Source of the DNA: Leucobacter muris
Lineage (GTDB): Bacteria; Actinomycetota; Actinomycetes; Actinomycetales; Microbacteriaceae
Direction of reading: 5' to 3'
Length of the DNA stretch: 64,000 nucleotides
Assembly (NCBI RefSeq): GCF_004028235.1
Contig: NZ_CP035037.1
Span: 1,612,001-1,676,000 of the forward strand
Positions 30,370-31,474 of the stretch are shown here, piece by piece. A model generated the notes under the pieces. It did not search any database, was not told where the DNA came from, and saw only the letters and a list, made by a program, of their open reading frames with translations. Position 1 is the stretch's first letter, and every line of letters begins with the position of its first letter. Both the position numbers and the translations under genes were made by a program.

Positions 30370-30437
30370 GGCGCAGGAACCCGGTGCAGCGCACGGCCGG
30401 GGCCGCCGGGGCGCGCCGCTGCTAGGCTGGTGGCGAT

Positions 30438-30552
30438 AGCGTCTAGGGTTCCGGGGCGGCGGCGAGAGCCGATCGCCCGCCTGGTCCGAGCGGCGCCACG
30501 CCGGGTTCCGTGATCCGGCGTCATCTGACAGGACAAAAGCCCGGAGGAACCT
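30438..30552 (+). promoter_or_regulatory. ykkC-class riboswitch, guanidine-I type by sequence
   Basis: Three blocks that define the ykkC RNA family occur in order: CTAGGGTTCCG (30443-30453), CTGGTCCGAG (30481-30490) and GGACAAAAGCCCGGAGG (30531-30547), separated by GC-rich hairpin arms (GGGGCGGCGGCGA..., CGCCGGGTTCCGTGATCCGGCG). The canonical AGAG after GGTCCG is CGGC here. The final block is close to the guanidine-I form; other ykkC subtypes bind ppGpp, PRPP or nucleotides and cannot be excluded by eye. The RNA lies 40 bp upstream of an EamA exporter. A TAGGCT box at 30423-30428 could be its -10. Confidence 0.82.
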
Positions 30553-30576
30553 CGCCCGTCGCGCCGTTCGCGATCG

Positions 30577-30592
30577 GGCAGAAGGTTCTGCC
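30577..30592 (+). promoter_or_regulatory. Expression-platform hairpin covering the transporter RBS
   Basis: GGCAGAA-GG-TTCTGCC ends one base before ATG 30593 and contains the only GAAGG box, so it could hide the RBS. A competing arm (GCCCG at 30554 with CGGGC at 30575) would break it. This suggests control of translation initiation by the upstream aptamer. Confidence 0.45.
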
Positions 30593-31474
30593 ATGCCGCT
30601 CGTACCCCTCCTGCTCGTTCTCGGCGCGGCGGTCACGCACGCCGCCTGGAACATCATCGCGCACGGATCGAGCCGCTCGGGCCTGCCGTTCCTCTGGTGG
30701 GGTGCGGTGTGCAGCGCGGTGCTGTGGGCGGTCGCGGTTCCGTTCACGGGCGGGCTGGGTGCGGCGACGCCCGGATCGTTGCTGCTCGGGGTCGGAGTCT
30801 CGGGTCTGCTGCACGTGCTCTACATGCTCGTGCTGCAGCGCGGCTACGCCAACGGCGACCTCTCGACGGTCTATGCGACGGCGCGGGGCACGGGACCGAT
30901 CCTCACCGTGCTGGTCGCGGTCGCGGTGCTCGGCGAGCGCCCGGGGTCGCTCGCGCTCGTCGGCGTGGCACTCGTGATCGGGGGTGTGGTGGCGTTCGGC
31001 GTGGTGGGCCGCTCGGCGCCCGGTGAGCGACGGCGCCGGCTCGATCCGGGGCTCGTGTACGGCCTGCTCACCGGGGTCGGGATCGCGGCCTACACGGTCT
31101 GGGACGCGCACGCCGTCACGGAGCTCGGCATCGCGCCCGTCGCGTTCATGGTGGGCTGCAGCCTCGCCGAGATCCCGTTCTTCACCGCGCTGCTGCTGCT
31201 CGAGGGGCGACGTGGCGCGCTCGCCCGCCTGCGCGCCGAGCTGCGACTCAACCGGATGCGTCTGCTCGCGTTCGGTCTGCTCTCGCCGCTCGCCTACGTG
31301 CTCGTGCTCACCGCGGTCACGCTCGCGCCCGTCTTGCTCGTCGCTCCCGTGCGCGAGGTGAGCGTCGTGCTGGTGGGCCTCTACGGGGCGTTCCGGCACC
31401 GCGAGAGCCGGCCCGCGCTGCGCCTCGTCGCCGCGACCGTGGTGGTGGCGGGTGTGGTGCTCGTCGCGCTGTGA
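30593..31474 (+). CDS. EamA/DMT superfamily transporter under ykkC riboswitch
   Basis: 293 residues and about ten hydrophobic helices in two EamA repeats (roughly 1-140 and 150-293). The segments VTHAAWNIIAHGSSRSGLPF, STVYATARGTGPILTVLVAV and VLVLTAVTLAPVLLVAPVRE are typical of drug/metabolite transporters. The riboswitch in its leader suggests induction by guanidine, and SMR guanidinium exporters belong to the same superfamily, so guanidinium export is a plausible role, though not shown. Stop codon lies 19 bp from the convergent parC stop. Confidence 0.85.
   Translation: MPLVPLLLVLGAAVTHAAWNIIAHGSSRSGLPFLWWGAVCSAVLWAVAVPFTGGLGAATPGSLLLGVGVSGLLHVLYMLVLQRGYANGDLSTVYATARGTGPILTVLVAVAVLGERPGSLALVGVALVIGGVVAFGVVGRSAPGERRRRLDPGLVYGLLTGVGIAAYTVWDAHAVTELGIAPVAFMVGCSLAEIPFFTALLLLEGRRGALARLRAELRLNRMRLLAFGLLSPLAYVLVLTAVTLAPVLLVAPVREVSVVLVGLYGAFRHRESRPALRLVAATVVVAGVVLVAL

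Follow-up and report, generated by a model that had tools for sequence, protein, structure and literature searches.

The stretch of DNA analyzed here, a window of 64,000 nucleotides from Leucobacter muris, carries a candidate aptamer of the ykkC family at positions 30432–30549, followed by a predicted hairpin that takes in a ribosome-binding site and by the gene of an EamA-type transporter. The features of the locus, in positions of the window, are:

30423–30428, + strand: -10-like hexamer TAGGCT, called by its position only; the transcript likely starts at the first bases of the aptamer
30432–30549, + strand: ykkC-type aptamer, subtype-2d-like, from an RF00442 match, covariation of the fold and the model scores given below
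30439–30443, + strand: 5' strand of P1, GCGUC, pairing with 30492–30496 (GGCGC); 98.9% of cells paired in 19 loci
30490–30491, + strand: counterparts of G45/A46 of guanidine-I and of G48/C49 of the PRPP aptamer; the G is kept and the A is replaced by C
30499–30520, + strand: P2 hairpin, with changes on both sides in 4 of 6 pairs
30522–30526, + strand: CAUCU block, counterpart of C75-A76-C77-C78-U of the PRPP aptamer; guanidine-I has CACGG
30545, + strand: A at the counterpart of guanidine-I G90 (Hoogsteen contact to guanidinium), an equivalence from our own mapping
30546–30551, + strand: 5' strand of P4, GGAACC, overlapping the conserved 3' end of the aptamer (covariation)
30580–30585, + strand: ribosome-binding site AGAAGG, its GG paired in P4
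30584–30589, + strand: 3' strand of P4, GGUUCU (covariation)
30593–31474, + strand: EamA/DMT transporter, phn_DUF6-like, 293 amino acids (PF00892, 48.7 bits, two stretches)

A reading of the letters made before this analysis (the original prediction) had placed here a guanidine-I riboswitch beginning at 30438 and had proposed a run of the guanidine-I model RF00442. The model gives a covariance match at 30432–30549 on the forward strand (51.7 bits, E 1.2e−8, 281 bases searched), although the Rfam gathering score of 63 bits is not reached, so that scanning the window with gathering thresholds does not report it. RF00442 is the only Rfam family matching the aptamer and, at E ≤ 10, matches nowhere else in the genome (3.2 Mb), which, together with the E value, argues that the match is not due to chance. 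The three ykkC blocks previously seen by eye are present in order (CTAGGGTTCCG at 30443–30453, CTGGTCCGAG at 30481–30490, GGACAAAAGCCCGG at 30531–30544); the earlier start coordinate was about 4–6 nt late.

An EamA gene had also been assigned behind the RNA, in agreement with the PF00892 match in 30593–31474. The best NCBIfam match of the transporter is TIGR03340 (phn_DUF6, phosphonate utilization associated putative membrane protein) at 101.4 bits against a cut-off of 288.15, so by NCBI's rule the protein is not a member; L003 (98 bits) and L097 (121 bits), two loci of the comparison, likewise stay below the cut-off, and the gene is alone in its genome in matching TIGR03340 at E ≤ 1e−10. Searching solved structures with the transporter returned only a weak match to EmrE (E 0.009). 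The upstream neighbor encodes a gyrB/parE-type topoisomerase subunit and the convergent downstream gene a gyrA/parC-type subunit.

RF00442 matches were found in 21 of 199 genomes of the family Microbacteriaceae, none of them above the cut-off; two were chance matches, and the remaining 19 loci all precede the same EamA gene. The search used strict filters, on which the RNA-negative calls below rest. At L012 (genome G106) the frame of the EamA gene ends early, at 156 codons, for which a frameshift or a mistake in sequencing may be the reason. Within the window's genus, R1, a covariance model made from the 19 family loci, had matches in 20 of 54 genomes, 19 of them genuine and one (G158) leading into an unrelated gene; in a sample of the phylum it matched 15 of 396 genomes and recovered the same RNA type before a TauE permease (G579, 99.8 bits), true guanidine-I RNAs and other ykkC variants. 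Eight of the 27 genus genomes that carry the EamA gene have it without the RNA, through either loss or late gain of the RNA; in three genomes that were read (L203, L204, L205) the gene follows closely after parE with no such RNA between.

Subtype 2 RNAs are separated from guanidine-I by one base, an A at position 46 in guanidine-I and a pyrimidine in 2a and 2b (PMC6031431). In the structure of guanidine-I (PMC11661666), the contacts to the ligand come from the counterparts of G45, A46, and G72, from the G73 backbone and from G90 through its Hoogsteen edge; we mapped this numbering from D. dadantii residues 33, 34, 63, 64, and 81. With guanidine-I (ykkC subtype 1) the window RNA shares the P1/P1a/P2/P3 fold, the CUAGGGUUCCG and CUGGUCCGAG blocks and the counterparts of G45, G88, and G89. 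It differs in having C at 30491 in place of A46, the guanidinium contact of the AG bulge, CAUCUGA with a 2-nt insertion in place of the CACGG block that holds the pocket floor G72 (G72 by itself being ambiguous in the alignment), and, by our mapped numbering, A at 30545 in place of G90. The original prediction had remarked on a CGGC replacing AGAG; the oddity is real with its placement offset, since the window reads GGUCCGAGCGGC and guanidine-I GGUCCGAGAG, which makes A to C at 30491 the key change, and it is the key to the class of the RNA. The score below the gathering threshold is not decisive alone: all RNAs of the class sample above that threshold carry A46, and four A46 RNAs (L140, L143, L146, L147) score 43–60 bits with RF00442.

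The same letters recur across the relatives. By script, C46 is present in 39 of 40 loci of the window type, and the fortieth (L053), for which the script had matched another spot, reads CCGAGCGG by eye; CAYC and A at position 90 are each found in 39 of 40, with L017 as the exception to both. Every A46 RNA in the comparison table has CACGG together with GGG at 88–90, whereas RNAs of the window type carry CAUCU plus a 2-nt insertion there, and GGA, only L017 differing (CAUUC, GGG). This outlier (same locus as L054, genome G096 of the window's genus), with G at position 90 and CAUUC for CAUCU, lies within a phosphonate cluster, and its specificity might have shifted.

Two further models were compared, R2 built from 12 guanidine-I RNAs of the window's phylum and R3 from 25 RNAs that lie before phn_DUF6-like or TauE-like genes in other families of actinobacteria, these 25 picked by a pattern that required C46 and CACCU, so that R3 is not blind to those bases. 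The window RNA scored 70.3 bits with R3 and 51.0 bits with R2, 18 of the 19 loci of the Microbacteriaceae type preferred R3, L017 having 49.2 bits with both models, and guanidine-I RNAs left out of R2 preferred R2 in 6 of 6 cases, by 22–44 bits; as three PRPP-type RNAs tried (L071, L091, L128) also score higher with R3, the comparison excludes guanidine-I rather than proving subtype 2d. A clearly better fit to a subtype-2 model had been named in the original prediction as speaking against its own class; this is the outcome here, and the base at position 46, by which the literature tells subtype 2 from guanidine-I, is a C.

Subtype 2d is a ykkC variant found before EamA (phn_DUF6) and TauE genes, with its ligand reported as unknown (Sherlock et al. 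2018, PMC5912903; Sherlock and Breaker 2020, PMC7266159). The window RNA combines the ykkC fold and a non-A at position 46 with a phn_DUF6-type EamA gene downstream, and behind the close RNAs L026/L142 and L141 the gene is a TauE (PF01925 above cut-off). The passages on subtypes in PMC5912903 name 5' and 3' extensions for 2a, 2b, and 2c only; that 2d has none is our own reading of that source, and no complementary ends were seen by eye in the 19 loci. Set against this published description, 30432–30549 is very probably a ykkC-family aptamer of the subtype 2d kind and a candidate riboswitch. Since EamA is a published 2d partner, the association of RNA and gene is not new; the find adds to a known orphan class a platform, a distribution and a ligand hypothesis. 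Two features of the window type, a translational P4 hairpin and a linkage to phosphonate clusters, are not described in the passages on 2d of the two papers.

The aptamer fold is kept in 93.1% of cells across the 19 loci (at most 46.7% when slid), with 24 cells changed on both sides; P1 contributes one pair with such changes, and the fold is weakest at the closing pair of P3, which 15 of the 19 loci leave unpaired. By eye, this pair (A2 columns 103/115) is Watson-Crick in many distant relatives (G-C, C-G, A-U) and A-C or C-U in most Microbacteriaceae, the letters still co-changing. Directly after the aptamer, relatives carry GGANCC, which pairs with GGNUCC including the GG of the ribosome-binding site. 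This P4 is paired in 94.3% of cells over 38 distinct rows, against 27–67% (maximum 66.7%) in slid controls, and has 17 cells with both-side changes, 16 of them at one pair; its covariation score was reached by 0 of 500 shuffles and its count of double-change pairs by 52 of 500. The platform of the window folds at −30.4 kcal/mol (z −4.63). The small hairpin at 30577–30592, from which translational control had been suggested, can form; the hairpin backed by relatives is the larger P4 (30546–30551/30584–30589), which closes an inner stem. The small hairpin is not a conserved element and was rejected as a conserved switch, its sequence GGCAGAAGGUUCUGCC occurring in L001, L037, L038, L039, and L045 and being absent from the other aligned rows. 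As judged from the alignment, P4 is the element common to the relatives.

The suggestion of translational control gains from these results, as P4 covers the ribosome-binding site and no terminator-like site was found at the locus, so that a transcription terminator was rejected. We consider it likely from the sequence that the RNA controls translation, and by analogy with validated ykkC classes the switch is probably ON. When GGAGGA was blocked in a folding test, pairing of the ribosome-binding site barely moved (mean 0.55 to 0.51), and a clean thermodynamic ON switch was discarded for want of a clear opening. A TANNNT hexamer, called by position only, ends 13–15 nt upstream of the (C/U)(U/A)AGGG block of the aptamer in 40 of 40 loci; a stricter consensus promoter scan found none at the locus. 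Because this hexamer abuts the aptamer, the transcript probably starts there, too far downstream for a P0 helix like that of PRPP/ppGpp aptamers to fit.

A pattern search, sorted partly by eye, gave 73 distant loci: 29 with phn_DUF6-like and 19 with RhaT-like EamA genes, 5 with a TauE-like start, 2 with MFS genes, 8 PRPP-type or xpt-linked and 10 others. The only TauE-like-start locus that was scanned (L084) matched no Pfam family. The RhaT-like C46 set (e.g., L056, L065, L066, L069, L077, L079, L106, L108, L109, L115, L119, L121–L123, L126) comes from Acidimicrobiia, Anaerolineae, Bipolaricaulota, and Trueperaceae, and its EamA protein differs from that of the window (L126: PF00892, best NCBIfam TIGR00950). 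Many of its RNAs have complementary ends by eye (GACC/GGUC, GAU/AUC, ACCU/AGGU), a likely P0 helix, and the set may form a separate ligand class. Pseudonocardia-type RNAs of the phn_DUF6-/TauE-like group (e.g., L097, L101, L117, L084) have a conserved 5' flank CAGCANGUGGUUGCGCC and a 3' GGGCU, which could pair as AGC/GCU into a short P0 absent from the window type. In Longispora and a Chloroflexota genome, 2d-like RNAs precede MFS transporters (L104 and L120, PF07690 above cut-off). In Paenibacillus massiliensis (L102 and L125), a C46 ykkC RNA with a CCCAGAAGG core, different from the purE-upstream rows, precedes a xanthine phosphoribosyltransferase gene (L102: TIGR01744 above cut-off).

With regard to the ligand, the binding pocket was compared with that of the PRPP aptamer, in which the 5'-phosphate is held by G48, C78 and, via a metal, C49 (PMC6031431). 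By alignment, the counterparts of all three are kept in the window RNA (30490, 30525, and 30491), whereas C77, which touches the ribose, is a U and the P0 bases binding the pyrophosphate end are absent. The simplest reading of these letters would be a ligand that is not much more than a phosphate-like group.

Gene neighborhoods bear on the same question. Downstream of the EamA gene, several relatives have genes of the phnD, phnC, and phnE types together with that of the FAD oxidase TIGR03364. Neighbor proteins scanned from L154, L155, L156, L159, and L164 passed their own cut-offs for phnC, phnE, TIGR03364, TIGR03351 (phosphonatase-like), and TIGR03366 (phosphonate-associated dehydrogenase); the binding protein passes TIGR01098 and not the cut-off of PhnD itself, and the divergent GntR regulators match the PhnF and HutC models below cut-off. 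TIGR03364 is present in 19 of 19 RNA-positive vs. 36 of 180 RNA-negative family genomes (Fisher p 1.7e−12), in 13 of 13 vs. 17 of 72 when counted by genus (p 1.6e−7) and, within the window's genus, in 19 of 19 vs. 18 of 35 (p 9.6e−5), with phnE there in 19 of 19 vs. 23 of 35 (p 0.002), all p-values that overstate the association because the genomes share ancestry. In 14 of the 19 RNA-positive family genomes, no more than 10 kb separate the oxidase from the RNA. The window's own genome has its phosphonate cluster (phosphonatase-like, TIGR03364, phnC, phnE) at about 340 kb, 1.3 Mb from the EamA gene between the topoisomerase genes. PbfD1, annotated in GenBank as TIGR03364, yields phosphonoacetaldehyde by oxidation of N-methyl-aminoethylphosphonate (N-methyl-AEP), and for some members of its enzyme group AEP is a further substrate (PMC10590968). 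The pocket reading and the gene linkage, both indirect, point the same way, to a C2 phosphonate.

The proposed explanation is that the aptamer senses a small phosphonate of aminoethylphosphonate catabolism (AEP, N-methyl-AEP or phosphonoacetaldehyde), which would be held by the phosphate-binding corner used in the PRPP aptamer, that the ligand-bound riboswitch would act on translation, probably ON, and that the EamA protein would move the ligand phosphonate, or a by-product, out of the cell. For this explanation as a whole, a 2d-kind riboswitch on translation with a phosphonate ligand and EamA export, we estimate a probability of about 0.5. A phosphonate-type ligand, taken separately, is a tentative assignment. 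More tentative again is the view that ykkC 2d RNAs of the window kind sense a carbon-phosphorus compound as a small-ligand version of the PRPP aptamer, with the phosphate site kept, those for ribose and pyrophosphate lost, and a relief exporter in aminoethylphosphonate catabolism under its control.

BLAST of the DNA of the 73 distant loci with Microbacteriaceae queries gave no TIGR03364, PhnX-like or PhnE match at E ≤ 1e−8, and no recurrent phosphonate gene was seen by eye among the neighbors of distant 2d-like loci (34 of the 73, most of those listed). TIGR03364 is missing from G579, which has the TauE-linked RNA, and from G296, G688 has a weak match below cut-off, and G272 and G890 carry guanidine-I RNAs yet have the oxidase. 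The 1.3 Mb between EamA gene and phosphonate cluster in the window's own genome and the oxidase in 36 of 180 RNA-negative family genomes also speak against the explanation. Given the lack of linkage in distant relatives, the EamA genes without RNA and these exceptions, the ligand assignment stays a prediction, and a phosphonate ligand is perhaps valid only for the Microbacteriaceae-type RNAs.

The strongest competitor, possible and still rather unlikely in our view, follows the suggestion of the discoverers of 2d that its ligand is a small, toxic, charged, guanidine-like compound, e.g., an amine (PMC5912903); the link to phosphonates would in that case stem from an amine by-product, such as methylamine from N-methyl-AEP, or from shared ancestry only. 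The same source judges 2d closest to guanidine-I and places phn_DUF6 transporters in the superfamily of guanidine transporters, and the oxidase would remove an amine or ammonia from its substrate, as suggested by PMC10590968; however, the kept counterparts of G48, C49, and C78 contact phosphate in the PRPP aptamer, and G90, a guanidinium contact, is an A. Less probable than this is a phosphorylated metabolite, or some other oxyanion that has nothing to do with phosphonates (e.g., a sugar phosphate or a sulfonate), which would draw on the same pocket argument and suit both EamA and TauE partners, TauE being named a sulfite exporter family by Pfam. The distant relatives, with no phosphonate genes nearby, fit an oxyanion of this sort, whereas the close association of the RNA with the phosphonate oxidase across Microbacteriaceae-type genomes speaks against it.

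That the RNA is a divergent guanidine-I riboswitch whose EamA protein exports guanidinium, as originally predicted, is very improbable. The sole Rfam match, the kept fold and the superfamily of the transporter would suit it, whereas the changed pocket bases and the model scores, on which guanidine-I membership was rejected, stand against it, with the sub-gathering score as weaker evidence; the urea/guanidine-carboxylase TIGR02712 passes its cut-off in 4 of 19 RNA-positive vs. 16 of 180 RNA-negative genomes (hand count), the window's own genome not among them, and the guanidinium-exporter reading is likewise not supported. Most improbable is a PRPP (2b) or ppGpp (2a) riboswitch. With PRPP-type RNAs the window RNA shares the C at the C49 counterpart, the CAYCU block and the G96 counterpart; the reading was rejected, from the letters and the gene context, for the missing P0 helix (no complementary ends by eye, the -10-like hexamer abutting the aptamer) and for an EamA transporter instead of purine or amino-acid genes. 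U for C77 and, after G96, an A where purE-linked rows have the second G of GG are further differences from the PRPP aptamer.

In the literature, the three papers combining riboswitch, phosphonate, and aminoethylphosphonate mention riboswitch once each, none with a phosphonate riboswitch in its title or the start of its abstract, and no later solution of the 2d ligand was found. If the phosphonate reading is true, the RNA would be, to our knowledge, the first phosphonate riboswitch, giving bacteria an RNA sensor for phosphonates and the phn_DUF6 transporters a substrate. The kept phosphate corner and the co-occurrence with TIGR03364 in one family provide a short list of compounds for the 2d ligand, and they argue against screening guanidine-like cations only.
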